The notes beneath the pieces are model-generated. The model saw nothing but the letters and a program-made list of their open reading frames with translations. It searched no databases and was not told the origin of the DNA. Positions 37,494 to 46,911 of a stretch of 64,000 bases of DNA are shown in pieces (the first letter of the stretch is position 1; every line of letters begins with the position of its first letter). The DNA is from Longibacter salinarum (lineage in GTDB: Bacteria > Bacteroidota > Rhodothermia > Rhodothermales > Salinibacteraceae). Where the stretch lies: contig NZ_PDEQ01000001.1 in the NCBI RefSeq assembly GCF_002554795.1, forward strand, positions 1 to 64,000, given 5' to 3'. Position numbers and translations under genes: made by a program.

Positions 37494-38771
37494 ATGCCTA
37501 CCCATTCGAACGAAGCCGTGTCGGCGTCTCTGGACTTAATCCGAAGCGTGACGACGTCAGACGGTATTCTCGCGAGTCCGACGAAGATAACGAATTACCG
37601 CCGCGTCTGGGCACGCGATAGTGTCATCTGCGGAATGGCAGGGTTGGTGGCGGACGACGATACGATCACACAGGGGTTGCGCGATACGCTCGAAACGCTG
37701 GCCTCTGCCATTGGGCCGGATGGGCAGATTCCGTCGAACGTTGCCATTCAGGATGGGCAACCAACGGACGTGAGCTACGGCGGACTCAGCGGCCGCGTCG
37801 ATGCGATCTCCTGGTTCGTCGTCGGCCTCGGACAGTACGTACTCGCGACCGGAGACGTGGCTTTTGGTGCGCGTTATGCTGCCGAGGTGCAGCGCGGACT
37901 GCAGTTGCTGACGGCGTGGGAGTACAATCGGCGCGAACTCGTGTACGTCCCGCTCGGCGGCGATTGGGCGGACGAGTACGTCTTGCACGGCTACGTGCTC
38001 TTCGACCAATTAATGCGTATCTGGGCGCTTCGTGCTGCTCAATGGCTCGGTCTCGGGGACGCTGCCGAGCGGCGAGAGGCGATCGAGCGGCGGGTTACCG
38101 CCACCTTCCGGCTCGACATTGGCGGAAGTTCGGGAGACGGGACGTATCATCCGTATGCCGCAGAGCAAATCATCGAACACGACCGCGTACCACCGTACTG
38201 GCTTCCCGCCCTGAGTCCAGGAGGATACCAGACCCCGTTCGATGGATGGAGCAACGCGCTCGCCGTCTTGCTCAACCTCGGGACGGAGGCGTCCACACGA
38301 CGAACGATCGATGCGGGAGAGGCGATTCGCAGGGACCGTATCGGTTCCCTGGTACCCGCCTTTTGGCCGCCGATCGAGGAAGGCGATCCGGACTGGCATC
38401 TTCTCCAGGGTAATCACCGAGGCACGTTTCACAATCACCCCGGTCACTACCACAACGGTGGTCTCTGGCCGGTCGTAAACGGCTGGTGGGGCTGTGCGCT
38501 GGATGCCGCCGGCCAAACAGATGATGCGCGGTCTGTTCTCAGCGCGATCCATGAGGCCAATCGGCATCAGGAGGGGGATCCCGAGTCGGAGGAGAGCACG
38601 ACACCGCCTTCCTCGGATTGGATCTTTCCGGAGTACCGCGATGCTGAGACGGCCACGCCGGGCGGGACGCGGCCACTTGCATGGAGCGCGGCCGGTGCTG
38701 TACTACTCGATTGCCATCTTGCGGGATTAAAACTCGCCTTCGCGGTCGATCCTACATCGCCCGACAAATAG
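37494..38771 (+). CDS. Six-hairpin glycosidase-like protein (amylo-1,6-glucosidase or invertase type)
   Basis: A 425-residue cytosolic protein with no signal peptide. The conserved core includes YRRVWARDSVICGMAGL (W-x-R-D), GQIPSNVAIQDGQPTDVSYG, and GGDWADEYVLHGYVLFDQLM with an acidic pair suitable as a catalytic acid. Later FHNHPGHYHNGGLWPVVNGW is typical of alpha/alpha-barrel glycosidases of the GH100/GH63/debranching type. It could act on sucrose, glycogen or a compatible-solute glycoside. The exact substrate is not decidable from sequence. It is divergent from dnaE. Confidence 0.75.
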   Translation: MPTHSNEAVSASLDLIRSVTTSDGILASPTKITNYRRVWARDSVICGMAGLVADDDTITQGLRDTLETLASAIGPDGQIPSNVAIQDGQPTDVSYGGLSGRVDAISWFVVGLGQYVLATGDVAFGARYAAEVQRGLQLLTAWEYNRRELVYVPLGGDWADEYVLHGYVLFDQLMRIWALRAAQWLGLGDAAERREAIERRVTATFRLDIGGSSGDGTYHPYAAEQIIEHDRVPPYWLPALSPGGYQTPFDGWSNALAVLLNLGTEASTRRTIDAGEAIRRDRIGSLVPAFWPPIEEGDPDWHLLQGNHRGTFHNHPGHYHNGGLWPVVNGWWGCALDAAGQTDDARSVLSAIHEANRHQEGDPESEESTTPPSSDWIFPEYRDAETATPGGTRPLAWSAAGAVLLDCHLAGLKLAFAVDPTSPDK

Positions 38772-39062: not shown

Positions 39063-39788
39063 ATGCGTGACCTCTACATTATCTATCTGGACCGCTATCA
39101 TCTCGGCGATCCTCTTTTCGTTAAGAAGATGGCCAAGCAAATTACGCAGGGACCGCAGCGGGACTGTCTCATTATTCATGGAAGCGGCGAAAAAGTGGAG
39201 CGCACGCTTGAGGCCCAGGGGATTTTCCCGGAGCGCCGCCGTGGTGTTCTGGATGTCGATTCGAAGGAGCACAAGCGCCTGGTCGAGCGGGCGGTGCGCG
39301 AGGCGAACAAAGAGATTGTCGGATCGCTCACAGATGAAGTTGTGAGTACCGTCGGCATTCAGGGAACGGACCGTGGTCTGCTACGGGTCGCACAGCACGA
39401 CGGCGAGGAGGGCGATGAGGTATCTACAGGTAAAACCGGTTGGCTCGAGGCCCTGCTCAAGCAACATGTCGTCGGCGTGGTCTCCAGTTTGGCGAAGTCC
39501 GACGGTGGTGGCGTCCGCGAAGTGTGGACTGCCGATGCCGTGACCGCGATTGCCTCCGCCCTGAAGGAATCTCTCGATCCTACTGTCGTTTTTCTCTCGA
39601 AAACCGGTCAGGCTGGTGTTAGAGACGCTACGGGGACGAAGGAGGATGTGGCTATTGACGACGCAAATGATGCTATCGTCGAGCCCGAAGCGGCCCGACA
39701 CGTTGTCGCCGCGGGATGGCCGGCGATTCTTACGTCACCGGACGGATTATGGAGCGACCCGGTACGCGCGACACGCTTGCATGCTTGA
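39063..39788 (+). CDS. Divergent acetylglutamate kinase-like protein
   Basis: A 241-residue protein that resembles amino-acid kinases. LIIHGSGEKVERTLEAQGI parallels the HGGG...LE..GI region of acetylglutamate kinase. VERAVREANKEIVGSL and VSTVGIQGTDRGLLRV parallel its V..NK.LV and G.SG.D..L segments. VREVWTADAVTAIASAL occupies the position of the catalytic-domain helices. The N-terminal K-x-G-G phosphate loop is missing (YIIYLDRYHLGDPLF instead), as is the usual N-acetyl site spacing. It may be a kinase-fold protein with a changed role, or a LysW-type variant. It is not next to arginine genes. Confidence 0.6.
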   Translation: MRDLYIIYLDRYHLGDPLFVKKMAKQITQGPQRDCLIIHGSGEKVERTLEAQGIFPERRRGVLDVDSKEHKRLVERAVREANKEIVGSLTDEVVSTVGIQGTDRGLLRVAQHDGEEGDEVSTGKTGWLEALLKQHVVGVVSSLAKSDGGGVREVWTADAVTAIASALKESLDPTVVFLSKTGQAGVRDATGTKEDVAIDDANDAIVEPEAARHVVAAGWPAILTSPDGLWSDPVRATRLHA

Positions 39789-40364: not shown

Positions 40365-41336
40365 ATGACTGGCTCTCATCCTGCGCAGCTCCGGTTTTCT
40401 CATCTCCCTGTCGTCGCCCTGCTCGTTGGTCTCATTGCACTGCTCGTTAGTGTAGCGCCGGTGCAGGCACAGGAAGACACCTCCTCCGACTCGCTCGGTG
40501 TCTGGACCACCGATTTAAGTGGCAAATTATCTGGCTCTCAGGCCGCCTACAGCAACTGGCAGGAAGGGGGCGTCAACTCTCTCGCCTTTACAACGTCACT
40601 TGATGGCACGTTCGAGCGGAGGGGGCGGCACTGGATTCAACGGCACCAGGCGCGTTTTGGCTTCGGGATCCTGCGCCAGGACTTCGATCAGGACGACAAG
40701 AGTGAGGTGCGGAAGGCCGATGACCTGATTCGGCTGGAGTCAACGCTCCGATATCAAGGAAATGGCTTCTTCCGTATCTTCAATCCCACGATCGCTGGTA
40801 ACGTCCGCACGCAGTTCGCCAAAGGATTTGCATTCGCCGGTCAGGACAACCCGTATCCGGATAGCAATCCGCTCGGGGGCGAAATACCAGACGGCGAGCG
40901 GCGGCTCGTATCGAAATTTCTGGCTCCAGCGTTCATTACGGAGTCGATCGGTCTGACGTACGAGCCGGCAACGTGGGTACAGATGCGCTTTGCGTTCGCC
41001 TCCAAGCAAACCGTTGTCGTCGAGGACCAGCTGAAGGTGCTCTACGATGTCGATATCGACAAGGCAGCGCGCGTCGAGGCAGGTGCAGAGTATGCGGTAG
41101 ATGTCAATCGAAAGCTGTCGGACGACATCCGGTACAAGTCGAATCTGAACACCTTCTTTTCTTTCAACCAGACGGAAGACCCGCCGGATGTGCTTTGGGG
41201 CAACGTTCTTCAACTGAAGGTTAACGACTACATCAGTACGGAGCTTGAGGTGACGTTGCTGTTCGACAAAAACGTCGATGATCGTGTTCAACTGAAAGAG
41301 GTTCTTTCCGTCGGTGTCTCCTTCAATGTGCTGTAG
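40365..41336 (+). CDS. DUF3078 outer-membrane-type protein
   Basis: A 323-residue protein with a signal peptide (LLVGLIALLVSVAPVQAQ). The region after it, SGSQAAYSNWQEGGVNSLAF, and the alternating aromatic beta-strands to the C-terminus match DUF3078, a Bacteroidota family predicted to form outer-membrane beta-barrels. The C-terminal strand ends in VSFNVL. No known substrate. The next gene begins 63 bases later on the same strand. Confidence 0.82.
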   Translation: MTGSHPAQLRFSHLPVVALLVGLIALLVSVAPVQAQEDTSSDSLGVWTTDLSGKLSGSQAAYSNWQEGGVNSLAFTTSLDGTFERRGRHWIQRHQARFGFGILRQDFDQDDKSEVRKADDLIRLESTLRYQGNGFFRIFNPTIAGNVRTQFAKGFAFAGQDNPYPDSNPLGGEIPDGERRLVSKFLAPAFITESIGLTYEPATWVQMRFAFASKQTVVVEDQLKVLYDVDIDKAARVEAGAEYAVDVNRKLSDDIRYKSNLNTFFSFNQTEDPPDVLWGNVLQLKVNDYISTELEVTLLFDKNVDDRVQLKEVLSVGVSFNVL

Positions 41337-41399: not shown

Positions 41400-43733
41400 G
41401 TGAAACGAGACCGCTGGATATACATCGCGTACGTGGTCTCAGGCGTCTGCCTCTGGCCGATTCCTCTGCTAAATGTGCTCCACGCGGAGTCATCGGCGGT
41501 CGTCGCGACGATAGCGTTTTTTGTGTCCGGCTGGGTCGCGTCGGCTCGCTTCGACTCATCAACGTCTCTCCGATCTGCCGTTCGGGTCGGCCGTCGCCTT
41601 CTCCTTCCGGCATTCATTCCGGCCGGTCTGCTTACGGCTTCCATGTTGTGGGCGCCCAATTGTGGCTATCTCCTTGGAGCCGGATTGTACCTTCTCTTTG
41701 TACCGGTCAGTGTCGTCTTCGCGACGGGTCTCGCTTATTTTCTGACAGGGACCGGTCTGCGTCGCCCTTCCCACTGGTTTGTCATGGTTGGCGTGGTTCT
41801 CCTCGTAGCAGGGCCCGCCTACGATCTTGGGTTTCATCCCCAGTTTTTCACGTACAACCACGTGTTCGGGGGAATCCTGGGGCCGATCTATGACGAGCAA
41901 CTGGCAATCCGCCCAGGTCTATTCTGGTTTCGCGGTGTGACTCTTCTTTGGACGCTCGGCGCAGTTCTCGTCGGAATGCGTCTGCGAGGCGAAGGCGGTC
42001 GCTGGATTACGGGCGCGGTGATGGGGGCGGCGCTTCTGATTGGGATCAGCTACCTCTTTTCCGCGCGACTCGGATTTAATGTCACGGAAGCATATCTCAA
42101 GCAAGCGCTGCCCGGCACGCGCACGACGACGCATTTCGAAATTCACTACGATCCCGGCGCACATTCGGATGCGGAAGTGAGGTCGTGGGCACGGATGCAG
42201 GAATTCGGGTACGCCGAACTGGCCGACCGGTTGAGCGCTGATCCTGCGGCGGATGAACGTATCCTCACGTTCGTCTATCCATCGCCGCGAGTGAAAGCTC
42301 GTTTGACCGGGGCACGAACGACGTCTGTGGCGCCTGTCTGGTTATCCCGCGCGCAATCGCATGTACTCGTCGGTCGGCTTGAGTCTAGTTTCCAGCATGA
42401 ACTCGCTCACCTTTTCGCTCGGCCGTATGGTTTGCCCGGGCTGAATGCTTCCTGGTCCGTCGGCCTCGTCGAGGGATGGGCGGTTGCGCTGGAGCCACCG
42501 ACGCTGGCACCGTCCTCCGACGATCTGGTGCGCGCGGCCCGCGGACGAACCGGTCTGAGCGACGATCTGCCCTCGGCCGTCGCCTCCCGTCTATCACCGT
42601 TTGGATTCTGGACGGATCGGGGAGCGGTCTCATACACGACGATGGGATCCTTCGTGCGGTATCTGCTCGAGCGGTACGGACCCGAGCCGCTGAAATCGGT
42701 TTATGCCACGGCAGCGTTCGAGTCCGTCTACGGAAAACCCGTTCGCGAGCTCGCGGAGGAATGGAGCGCCTCTCTGGAGAAAGCGAGCACGATCGATGCG
42801 GAGGCAGGTGGAACGGCGGCCCGCTGGTTTTCGCGGCCGTCGTTGTTTGAAACGGAGTGTCCGCATTATGTGCCCCCTTATCGGCGGCGCATTCAGCAGG
42901 CCCAGCGAGAACTCGCCGCGGAGGATTCGGTCGATGCCCGACGTTTCCTGCAGGAGGCGGTAAGCCTAGAGCCCCGATCGGCAAATGCCCACGTCCGTCT
43001 CGCGCGTCTTCTGCTCGCAATGGATTCGTCGCCTGCATCGGTTTTGGAAAAGGTGAACAGCCTGGATCCAGAATGGCACACGCCATCAGTCACGCTTCTG
43101 CGTGCCGATCTGACTGCTCTCACAGGCGATCTGGAAGAGGCTCGTCGGCTCTATGCGAAGACGACAATCGCGATTCCGTCCTATGAAACAGATGCGCGAG
43201 CGAACGTGATGCTGCGCTCGCTTTCCGCGTCGTCTCCCTCGCTCACCCGACTTCTGACGATCGGGGGGACAGCGGAGGAGAAGGCGAGACGGTTCGCACA
43301 TCACGCGAGCACTGCGTCGGGGCGAGAGGCAATTCTCGGTCACATCTGGGCTGCTTGGATGTATCGGGCGGCTCACGATGCGCGTCGCGTCGCGGAGATG
43401 TGGGGACGAATCCTTCCCGACCGCCCGAGGCATACGCGACAACGTGTACAAGACGTGACGAATGAGGTCGTAGGGGACCGGTTGCCGCGTGCGTGGCAGG
43501 TTGCCCTGTCAGATGAATTGCTTCGGTCGGTCCTCCATGCCGACATGCGTACTGGACGTGCAGAACGCGTTGGTCGTGAGGCCAAGCAAATGGCCGCGAT
43601 GATGCAAGAGGCAGGTGCGAAACAGGAGGCGCGTGTTTGGCTCCATCTCGCGGCTCAAGCCGAATGGGTCGAGCAGGGGGAAGGGCGTACGCAGAAGCGT
43701 GACGATGTGGGGGAGTCGCTGGCCGGCGGTTGA
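41400..43733 (+). CDS. Membrane-anchored gluzincin-type metalloprotease with TPR-like tail
   Basis: A 777-residue protein from GTG 41400. Residues 1-220 contain about seven hydrophobic spans. Residues about 235-330 (THFEIHYDPGAHSDAEVRSW, then FVYPSP) precede SFQHELAHLFARPYGLPG, where H-E-L-A-H is a complete HExxH zinc motif. WSVGLVEGWAVALEPP downstream supplies a candidate third ligand Glu. This resembles the peptidase-MA-like domain. Residues about 490-770 form helical repeats (RRFLQEAVSLEPRSANAHVRL), probably TPR. It is likely an inner-membrane protease with an extracytoplasmic or cytosolic catalytic domain; the topology is undecided. Confidence 0.75.
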   Translation: MKRDRWIYIAYVVSGVCLWPIPLLNVLHAESSAVVATIAFFVSGWVASARFDSSTSLRSAVRVGRRLLLPAFIPAGLLTASMLWAPNCGYLLGAGLYLLFVPVSVVFATGLAYFLTGTGLRRPSHWFVMVGVVLLVAGPAYDLGFHPQFFTYNHVFGGILGPIYDEQLAIRPGLFWFRGVTLLWTLGAVLVGMRLRGEGGRWITGAVMGAALLIGISYLFSARLGFNVTEAYLKQALPGTRTTTHFEIHYDPGAHSDAEVRSWARMQEFGYAELADRLSADPAADERILTFVYPSPRVKARLTGARTTSVAPVWLSRAQSHVLVGRLESSFQHELAHLFARPYGLPGLNASWSVGLVEGWAVALEPPTLAPSSDDLVRAARGRTGLSDDLPSAVASRLSPFGFWTDRGAVSYTTMGSFVRYLLERYGPEPLKSVYATAAFESVYGKPVRELAEEWSASLEKASTIDAEAGGTAARWFSRPSLFETECPHYVPPYRRRIQQAQRELAAEDSVDARRFLQEAVSLEPRSANAHVRLARLLLAMDSSPASVLEKVNSLDPEWHTPSVTLLRADLTALTGDLEEARRLYAKTTIAIPSYETDARANVMLRSLSASSPSLTRLLTIGGTAEEKARRFAHHASTASGREAILGHIWAAWMYRAAHDARRVAEMWGRILPDRPRHTRQRVQDVTNEVVGDRLPRAWQVALSDELLRSVLHADMRTGRAERVGREAKQMAAMMQEAGAKQEARVWLHLAAQAEWVEQGEGRTQKRDDVGESLAGG

Positions 43734-43815: not shown

Positions 43816-45141
43816 ATGACTGTTTGTTCTTCCTGGACGTTTTCGCCGGCCGCCTGTCGTCGAGGCCTCGCGTTCATTCTGTTCTGTTTTGTGCTTACTG
43901 GATGCGCGACGACGGAGTCGACCAACAACGGCGAATCGTCGACTCCTGCGCGGTCGTCGGGGCTCCGCCTCGCCCCTCAGGTTGACCGAGCGAAGACCGT
44001 TCAACTTTTCCGGGGAACGAACGAGGCCGCACCGCCGATTTTACGCCTCAATGGCTCGCAAACGTTGACACTGGCCTTTGACCTGCTGGGCGAGTCCGAC
44101 GGACCGGTTTCCGTGTACTTCTACCACGCCAATCGTGAGTGGGAGCGGGATCCGTCTTCATCGCGTTTCTTAGCCAGTTTTCAGTCGGACAATGTCCTCG
44201 ATTATTCGCCATCGCAGGGGACGGAGGTTCGGTACACGCATTACCGCTACTCCTTTCCGAACGATGACATCCAGTTCGAGGCGAGTGGTAACTACATCGT
44301 TCGGGTGACGGAGCAGGGGAGAGAAGATGCCGTTCTGTTCGAGCGACCGTTTTTTATTACGGAGGATGCCGGATCCCTGAATCTTGGAGTCGAGGGGATC
44401 ATCGTCACCGGGCAGCAGGTGCCGTCGGATCGGCCTATCGCGCAGTACGTTCCGCCAGCGGCCCTCGGGAGTAGCACGTACGACTACGCCGTATGCTTCG
44501 TCCGAAATGCTGACTACTCGACGTCACGATGCGCTGACCGGTCGCGTCTCATGCCGTCCGATGGAGTAGAATTCGAGTTATCTCGAGACCGTGCGTTCGA
44601 TCCCATCCGATCACGGCATGCACTGGACCTCAGCCAGCTCCGTGTCGGGCCTCGTATCGAACGCGTCGATCGGTCGGTTTCGCCGTTCCAAGTCATGCTT
44701 GAGCCAGACGTTGCACGGTTTGCCGGGACGCCATTCCGAGATCCCCTCGGTTCACAGATCGTCGTGTCGGATGCCGTTACGGCACTTTCTCGACCGGAGA
44801 CGGCTGCCGAGTATGTTCAGGCAACCTTTGCTTTCGTGCCACCGGATGAGCAGCCGGTCAGTGGTGATGTTGTTATTGCCGGTGGATTTACCGGAGGACA
44901 GGTTCGTCCCGAAAACGCGATGCGATGGGTGATGAACCGCGGACGGTACGAAGTTGACGTGTTGCTGAAACAGGGGCGCTACGAATATTTCTATGCCTCG
45001 GACGATCCGCAGTTAGAGGCGGCGATGAATCGCAACATCACCCCGGCACCGGATCGGTACGTCGCGTTCGTTTACTACCGGGACATTACGCTTAGTTCGG
45101 ATCGGCTGGTCAATGTCGGGACCGTGGAGGGAGTACGTTGA
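43816..45141 (+). CDS. T9SS plug-like lipoprotein (DUF5103)
   Basis: A 441-residue protein from ATG 43816, chosen because it gives the signal peptide ending in lipobox LTGC; the frame is open to 43615 but overlaps the previous gene. The order of motifs LRLNGSQTLTLAFDLLG, VSVYFYHANREW, EASGNYIVRVTE and FVYYRD matches DUF5103, named the type IX secretion plug protein after its role sealing the SprA translocon in Flavobacterium. It fits the T9SS substrate at 18484. No other T9SS core genes are in the window. Confidence 0.78.
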   Translation: MTVCSSWTFSPAACRRGLAFILFCFVLTGCATTESTNNGESSTPARSSGLRLAPQVDRAKTVQLFRGTNEAAPPILRLNGSQTLTLAFDLLGESDGPVSVYFYHANREWERDPSSSRFLASFQSDNVLDYSPSQGTEVRYTHYRYSFPNDDIQFEASGNYIVRVTEQGREDAVLFERPFFITEDAGSLNLGVEGIIVTGQQVPSDRPIAQYVPPAALGSSTYDYAVCFVRNADYSTSRCADRSRLMPSDGVEFELSRDRAFDPIRSRHALDLSQLRVGPRIERVDRSVSPFQVMLEPDVARFAGTPFRDPLGSQIVVSDAVTALSRPETAAEYVQATFAFVPPDEQPVSGDVVIAGGFTGGQVRPENAMRWVMNRGRYEVDVLLKQGRYEYFYASDDPQLEAAMNRNITPAPDRYVAFVYYRDITLSSDRLVNVGTVEGVR

Positions 45142-45819: not shown

Positions 45820-46911
45820 ATGCCCGGCACTGCTTGTACCCGTTTCGATCTCACTTCCTGCGCGACCACATCGCCTACATTTCGTACGAGCGATGCCGTG
45901 CGCTCGAAACTAGAGGAGGCGTGCGAAGCACGGCCAAGCATCGCGCAATTCGAAACGATTGGCACCAGCGAAGAGGGGCGTCCGATTGCGGGCGTTGTGC
46001 TCGGAAAAGGGCCGCAGACGGTCAGTATCGTCGCTGGAAACCACGCTGACGAGCCGGTAGGCCCGGAAACGCTACGGTCATTGGTGGTCTCGGTTCTGGA
46101 GAACCCGGATGCGTTCGAAGGTCTTCTGGAGCAGTTTACGTTCCGAATCGTTCCGCACACGAACCCGGATGGAGAGGCCCGCAACCGTCCGTGGATTGAG
46201 GCCTGGCCTGACATGCAAGCGTACCTTCGACATGTCGAGCGGGACCTGCCGGGCCGGGACCTTGAGTTTGGTTTTCCATCCATGCGCCCAGAGAATGAAG
46301 CCGTCGCCTCGTTCCTCGAACTGCACGCTCCATTCGCCCTGCACGCGAGCCTACATGGGATGTCTGTCAGTGAAGGAGCACTCCTTCTTATCAACCGGCC
46401 CTGGGCATATCGGAGTGAGAAGCTACAGAAAGAGTATCGAAAAGCGGCGATCGATGCGGGGCTGAGGATGCACGATCACAATCGAAAAGGAGAAAAAGGC
46501 TTCTTCTGGATCGCCCCGGGATATCAAACCACCCCTCGCGGGGAGGCCATGCGTTCCTACTTCCGGTCGATCGGCGATCCCGATATGGCCGATCGATTCC
46601 ATGACAGCTCGATGGAAATGGTCATGGGCTGGGGCGGCGATCCGCTGTGCCTGGTCACGGAGCTCCCGTTATGGGTGCTTGTTGACGGGCCGGCCGAGGA
46701 GCCGCCGCCCACCAATCCGCACCGCCCGATGCGCTATGAAGCCTTCCGCGAGCAATTTGCCGACCTGAGGCATCAGGATCTGACCCAGTCGGACGCGTCC
46801 CCCTCCGACCTGCTCGGCGACTTTGAGCTTGAGCCTCTGGATCCGGCCGTCGCGATGCGCCTGCAACTGACAGTTCTGTCCCTGGCGCTTGAAACGGTGG
46901 CGGAGGATTGA
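45820..46911 (+). CDS. M14-family zinc carboxypeptidase
   Basis: A 363-residue protein without a signal peptide. VSIVAGNHADEPVGPETLR supplies the H-x-x-E zinc site. IVPHTNPDGEARNRPW matches the family region following it, ALHASLHGMSVSEGALLLI provides the third histidine, and LVTELPLWV contains a candidate catalytic Glu. M14 enzymes remove C-terminal residues or cleave peptidoglycan-type gamma-bonds; the cytosolic location suggests peptide or cofactor processing. It converges with the SpmB-like gene, leaving only 17 bases. Confidence 0.85.
   Translation: MPGTACTRFDLTSCATTSPTFRTSDAVRSKLEEACEARPSIAQFETIGTSEEGRPIAGVVLGKGPQTVSIVAGNHADEPVGPETLRSLVVSVLENPDAFEGLLEQFTFRIVPHTNPDGEARNRPWIEAWPDMQAYLRHVERDLPGRDLEFGFPSMRPENEAVASFLELHAPFALHASLHGMSVSEGALLLINRPWAYRSEKLQKEYRKAAIDAGLRMHDHNRKGEKGFFWIAPGYQTTPRGEAMRSYFRSIGDPDMADRFHDSSMEMVMGWGGDPLCLVTELPLWVLVDGPAEEPPPTNPHRPMRYEAFREQFADLRHQDLTQSDASPSDLLGDFELEPLDPAVAMRLQLTVLSLALETVAED

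Follow-up and report, generated by a model that had tools for sequence, protein, structure and literature searches.

The gene at positions 41400-43733 (forward strand) of the 64,000-nucleotide stretch of Longibacter salinarum DNA analyzed here, hereafter the window, raises the question of what kind of enzyme results when a metalloprotease motif is joined to a set of membrane helices, and whether this enzyme serves the secretion system whose plug gene lies next to it. Its reading frame is open throughout and specifies 777 amino acids from a GTG start, arranged as a seven-helix membrane domain (residues 1-225, 41400-42074), a zinc peptidase domain (residues 226-490, 42075-42869) and a TPR-like helical tail (residues 491-757, 42870-43670). 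A first-pass annotation had described a polytopic N-terminus, an intact HExxH motif with a downstream glutamate and a helical repeat region in this protein, next to a DUF3078 gene and a T9SS plug-like gene, and had suggested an envelope-stress or secretion-linked protease. We find the architecture and the intact site to be well supported. Seven hydropathy peaks occur in the first ~225 residues and recur in the average of 39 homologues, the motif HELAH is present at residues 333-337 (42396-42410), followed by EGWA at residues 358-361, and the tail matches the TPR_19 family with 25.3 bits (cut-off 25). The neighbors are likewise as described: the DUF3078 gene (40365-41336, forward strand; 64.9 bits, cut-off 25) lies 63 bases upstream, and the T9SS plug gene (43816-45141, forward strand; NF052315, 156.6 bits, cut-off 100) lies downstream. 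The ATG at 43816 is the most likely start of the plug gene and would provide its product with a lipoprotein-type signal (LTGC, assigned by eye).

We examined the conservation of the putative active site. All 180 homologous loci matched, and removal of 34 duplicate or contained copies left 146 distinct sequences. His-333, Glu-334, His-337, Glu-358, Gly-161, Gly-304, Gly-359, Phe-403 and Tyr-412 are identical in 146 of 146. HExxH and the downstream glutamate, two features expected of a gluzincin (Peptidase MA clan), are found in every sequence, and the loss of zinc ligands among homologues that would speak against a metalloprotease did not occur. An alignment of 39 members drawn from many families has Cys-88, Gly-93, Gly-161, Gly-304, Trp-314, His-333, Glu-334, His-337, Glu-358, Gly-359, Ala-361, Phe-403, Tyr-412 and Cys-487 as invariant positions. 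Going by the motif, the two histidines of HELAH would be zinc ligands and Glu-334 the catalytic glutamate, with Glu-358 (42471-42473) as the presumed third ligand in the pattern HExxH-x20-E and Tyr-412 (42633-42635) as a candidate transition-state residue. The spacing between the second histidine and the glutamate is 20 residues in 105 of the 146 sequences, 22 in 36, 19 in 4 and 18 in one.

The peptidase domain is a distant relative of Peptidase_MA_2 (PF13485), a family that is reportedly named in a Treponema genome paper. This family was matched by 12 of the 39 members at E <= 0.01, the best E-value being 2.2e-7. The window's protein scores 20.0 bits, under the cut-off of 32.4 bits, and among 11 members scanned singly the best reaches 30.0 bits and none the cut-off, whereby bit scores refer to these 11 and the member with an E-value of 2.2e-7 is known by that value alone. 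Five of the 11 do not match Peptidase_MA_2 at E <= 0.05. Two members matched BSP (PF04450), and one weakly matched the NCBIfam flagellinolysin model. Pfam scans of the window's protein and of the members returned no known wall peptidase family, and for the seven-helix domain no Pfam family was found in more than one of the 39 members (best E 0.0055). Profile searches of the PDB gave neither a relative of the peptidase nor a sequence match to the seven-helix domain, the one hit for the two domains being at chance level (E 1.9). A full-text search, covering mainly open-access papers and judged by title and the start of the abstract, returned no description of an architecture combining seven helices, a zinc peptidase and TPRs. 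Judged by its sequence, the protein belongs to a family that is absent from the curated libraries we searched but falls among the gluzincin metallopeptidases, a known kind, and its seven-helix domain is the family's own, uncurated membrane domain. The gene product is probably a zinc-dependent, protein-cutting enzyme; we infer zinc binding and proteolysis from the conserved residues.

Structure models were built from three sequences, the window's protein and two relatives. The full-length model has a mean pLDDT of 52.9, and most of its peptidase lies below 50; the peptidase modeled alone with the same three-sequence alignment reaches 42.9. The tail is the single confident part of these predictions: it is modeled as 15 helices, with residues 501-670 mostly at pLDDT 74-92. 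Some of the 39 members likewise match TPR families.

We next consider on which side of the membrane the active site is located. Hydropathy averaged over the 39 members has seven peaks in the first 220 residues and an additional two-residue peak (355-356) inside the peptidase. Loops assigned to the inside carry on average 2.92 (N-terminus), 2.44, 2.49 and 1.97 lysine and arginine residues in these members, and loops assigned to the outside 0, 0.03, 0.77 and 1.33, where the value of 1.33 belongs to the stretch that leads into the peptidase. This family-wide charge bias assigns Cys-88, the loop between TM5 and TM6, the peptidase and the tail to the periplasm. The protein is thus predicted to reside in the inner membrane with its N-terminus inside and its peptidase and tail in the periplasm. 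A signal for an exclusively cytosolic location, the other result that the first-pass annotation had named as contrary to its reading, was not encountered; the predicted topology and the paired cysteines described below argue against such a site.

Cys-88 (41661-41663), in the predicted periplasmic TM3-TM4 loop, and Cys-487 (42858-42860), at the junction of peptidase and TPR tail, form the sole conserved cysteine columns of the family. Each is present in 39 of 39 members, the next best column in 6. Among 145 full-length sequences (one of the 146, cut at a contig end, was left out of this test), Cys-88 is lost in three, and Cys-487 is lost in the same three (L050, L169 and L174). Under independence this joint loss has P = 2e-6, the strongest of 136 pairs among 17 near-invariant columns, with P = 0.004 for the next strongest. 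The three sequences belong to three families (f11, f44 and f26) on separate branches, and the five nearest neighbors of each retain both cysteines. L050 is entirely free of cysteine. In L169 and L174 cysteines occur at other positions; both sequences sit on long branches, which makes their alignment near Cys-88 less certain. Joint loss on separate branches makes a Cys-88-Cys-487 disulfide probable and also supports the periplasmic placement. Such a bond, proposed here from the pattern of loss, probably straps the peptidase to the membrane domain.

A second conserved element of the membrane domain is the loop between TM5 and TM6, predicted to be periplasmic, together with its flank (residues 145-178, 41832-41933, HPQFFTYNHVFGGILGPIYDE to Arg-178). 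Its mean entropy of 1.65 bits compares with 1.79 bits for the catalytic core (residues 301-365), 2.52 bits for the whole membrane domain and 3.15 bits for the tail. Pro-147, Asn-153, Gly-161, Tyr-164, Asp-165 and Arg-178 are unchanged in 139 to 146 of the 146 sequences. The loop may therefore form a functional surface beside the catalytic cleft. The paired loss of Cys-88 and Cys-487, the conserved TM5-TM6 loop and a seven-helix domain that has no PDB match and no Pfam family found in more than one of 39 members are the new features of this family.

How widely the protease occurs was assessed within the host's phylum, to which all distribution counts refer. Matches were found in 50 of 60 related genomes, and the family profile detects 153 of 394 phylum genomes at E <= 0.001 and 129 at E <= 1e-10. 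We counted the latter as protease genomes and left out the 24 weaker ones, in which the match, where its position was shown, lies mostly in the TPR part; one of them (G208) matches a piece of the peptidase. With these numbers and zinc ligands invariant in 146 of 146 sequences, the architecture is more than a chance association. A contig search with the single protein returned two relatives (47-48% identical), and no relatives were found among the viral contigs or plasmids searched. Within the window's genome, the match to the peptidase profile that ranks next has an E-value of 0.02, so that no clear second copy is seen. In a search sample of 148 genomes, the seven-helix part was matched in 63 at E <= 0.01, two of which (E 2.5e-4 and 0.007) were excluded as too weak. 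The 61 genomes with a clear match are all included in the 129 protease genomes; in 60 of them the domain is found once, inside a frame of 702-815 amino acids, and in the remaining one it is split across two contigs. The membrane domain was thus not seen apart from the peptidase in this sample.

We compared the gene neighborhoods in 41 regions. The protease was called in 39 of these, 13 in the window's order and 26 outside. The ORF caller missed it in two (L084 and L092) and chose an antisense frame downstream of it in L095, where a plug match is present, and perhaps in L083, so that all neighbor counts are lower bounds. Within the order, DUF3078 lies directly upstream in at least 11 of 13 loci and the plug gene directly downstream in at least 9, or 10 when G035 is included; a plug match is also present behind the protease in G033, which is not one of the called regions. 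Profiles built from this order's DUF3078 and plug copies found neither gene as a neighbor in the 26 outside loci. In 9 of these (L069, L070, L072, L077-L080, L098 and L099), from five families, a MurA-like gene of 420-451 amino acids is located directly upstream on the same strand, with gaps of -34 to 74 bases, and the one copy tested is MurA (NCBIfam murA, 545.6 bits, cut-off 392.7). No MurA was found beside the protease in the other 17 outside loci or in the 13 loci of the window's order. Further neighbors elsewhere include proline dehydrogenase, TPR and GWxTD proteins, and no single gene is a constant neighbor across the 39 loci. At most, DUF3078, the T9SS plug and MurA share the theme of the cell envelope.

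Some other genes around the window's locus may be recorded here. The 241-residue protein encoded at 39063-39788 (forward strand) has no Pfam match at E <= 1 and represents an orphan family. Its relatives are found repeatedly at loci of this order, 1.3-1.6 kb upstream of the protease; of the 10 hits, one is weak and another falls in a region without a called protease. An M14 zinc carboxypeptidase (45820-46911, forward strand; 63.4 bits) lies behind the plug gene, and a similar ORF is seen by eye at the same place in two other loci (L031 and L032). The gene at 37494-38771 (forward strand) encodes a protein resembling glycoside hydrolase family 100 (39.2 bits, cut-off 23.6).

The secretion-linked part of the first-pass reading can be judged from co-occurrence across the 394 genomes. 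A plug match (E <= 0.001) is found in 252 genomes; 107 have both plug and protease, 22 the protease without plug and 145 the plug without protease, giving an odds ratio of 4.0 (Fisher P 3e-8, with no adjustment for relatedness among the genomes). SprA exceeds its cut-off in 302 genomes, including 129 of 129 protease genomes, among them all 22 that are without a plug match (one genome with a weak SprA match, G307, was left out of this count). The window's genome itself encodes SprA (C5:311365-318930, 1714.7 bits) and PorV (C3:463077-464123, 325.3 bits). These observations, together with the adjoining plug gene, would fit an accessory protease dedicated to the T9SS that processes parts of the secretion machine or its cargo. 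However, 173 of the 302 SprA genomes are without the protease, 22 of the 129 protease genomes have no plug match, the plug is a neighbor in the window's order alone (13 versus 26 loci), outside it the upstream neighbor is MurA-like in 9 loci, and SprA and PorV are located on other contigs than the window. Ninety-two genomes have neither SprA nor protease, and among 20 SprA-negative genomes listed, 19 are from one family, so that the nesting of the protease in SprA genomes rests on few lineages. The protease is nested within T9SS-bearing lineages, and shared ancestry can explain this as well as function. Its absence from 173 SprA genomes led us to reject a role as core or obligate accessory component of the T9SS, and we regard a dedicated accessory protease as distinctly unlikely. 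Of the secretion link, the co-occurrence stands and the link itself is weak; a general envelope-maintenance protein is more likely than a part of the neighboring secretion system, and only a general envelope role fits. The MurA-like neighbors in five families and the very conserved loop at the membrane surface could instead indicate an enzyme with a role in the metabolism of peptidoglycan or of lipid-linked wall material. A lipid-linked precursor would then be bound by the loop, and the zinc site would cleave either a peptide stem or a protein attached to the wall. We hold this to be improbable, given that MurA is not found at 17 of 26 outside loci or at any of the 13 in the window's order and that no known wall peptidase family is matched.

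The fusion of a polytopic domain to a gluzincin-type site also brings to mind a sensor protease, whose membrane domain would sense a signal and whose protease would free a regulator in the manner of BlaR1/MecR1. This is very doubtful, as the catalytic domain is predicted to be periplasmic, whereas BlaR1 and MecR1 act on a cytoplasmic repressor, and no gene is a constant neighbor across the 39 loci. That the protein is a scaffold or chaperone, with a metal site kept for stability alone, is suggested by its TPR tail, which resembles scaffold proteins; with the site, including the presumed catalytic Glu-334, unchanged in 146 of 146 sequences, we consider this highly improbable. Unlikely, too, is a composite active site, in which the seven-helix domain, the near-invariant loop and the gluzincin domain, locked by Cys-88-Cys-487, would form a separate class of membrane-surface metallopeptidases whose substrates, be they protein tails, lipoproteins or lipid-linked wall precursors, would be drawn from the inner membrane's outer leaflet. 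The disulfide would perhaps also report on periplasmic oxidation.

A periplasmic protease of envelope proteins is the likely identity of the gene product, and we give moderate credence to the full form of this reading, an inner-membrane, periplasm-facing, disulfide-strapped zinc metallopeptidase of the gluzincin type that cuts envelope proteins. The seven helices, with the N-terminus inside, would anchor the enzyme in the inner membrane and present its active site to the periplasm. The disulfide between the TM3-TM4 loop and the peptidase/TPR junction would strap the catalytic domain onto the membrane domain and thereby hold the cleft at the membrane surface, beside the conserved TM5-TM6 loop. 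The TPR tail would extend into the periplasm and present substrate. His-333, His-337 and Glu-358 would hold a zinc ion that activates a water molecule, with Glu-334 acting as the base. Membrane-proximal segments of envelope proteins may thus be cut, either for quality control or for maturation; we infer both the position of the cleft and this class of substrate. Against this reading, the neighbors vary by lineage, with genes as unrelated as proline dehydrogenase among them, and the three homologues L050, L169 and L174 manage without the cysteine pair. In addition, the low-confidence models of the peptidase bear out neither a gluzincin fold nor proximity of Cys-88 and Cys-487, the 11 singly scanned members all stay below the Peptidase_MA_2 cut-off, and the PDB yielded no relative of the peptidase.

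What is known of envelope quality control in the host's phylum comes largely from analogy with E. coli. The family adds a membrane peptidase that occurs as a single copy in the genomes carrying it and is kept, with its site fully intact, across many of the phylum's families, and its model makes sharp predictions of one disulfide, one topology and one catalytic glutamate. We compared it to known zinc peptidases. For Peptidase_MA_2 of the Peptidase MA clan, the likeness lies in residues 332-459, where the HExxH region and the downstream glutamate map onto the profile's second half (positions 71-199 of 201); our family differs in scoring below the cut-off in 11 of 11 members scanned singly and in carrying a seven-helix domain that Pfam models cover in no more than one of 39 members. 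BlaR1 and MecR1 (M56) also combine membrane helices with a gluzincin domain, which in their case is located on the cytoplasmic side, and the present protein would lie on the opposite side of the membrane, with a TPR tail and no recognized sensor domain. Site-2 proteases have their HExxH motif inside a membrane helix, and membership in this group was rejected because residue 333 falls outside all seven hydrophobic segments. A functional parallel is BepA, an M48 enzyme of E. coli in which a periplasmic zinc metallopeptidase is followed by a TPR domain whose residues have a role in substrate targeting (PMC7950410). The parts of this source on which we draw describe BepA as periplasmic, mention no membrane helices in it, give the M48/BepA signature as HExxH-x(30,140)-HPx4R and list HtpX as an inner-membrane metalloprotease of quality control (PMC7950410). 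That signature is absent from 145 of our 146 sequences, including the window's, and present in L060 only. Pfam M48 has no match to the window's protein at E <= 1 and is not among the 18 families matched by the 39 members at E <= 0.01. Membership in M48 was rejected on these grounds, and the protein would be a membrane-anchored counterpart with a BepA-like layout outside M48. HtpX and Ste24, the membrane M48 enzymes, similarly are metalloproteases at the membrane; HtpX has its active site on the cytoplasmic side, whereas ours is predicted to face the periplasm and is without the M48 signature. If proteolytic, the enzyme would act at the membrane surface with a design that differs from those of M48, S2P and FtsH.
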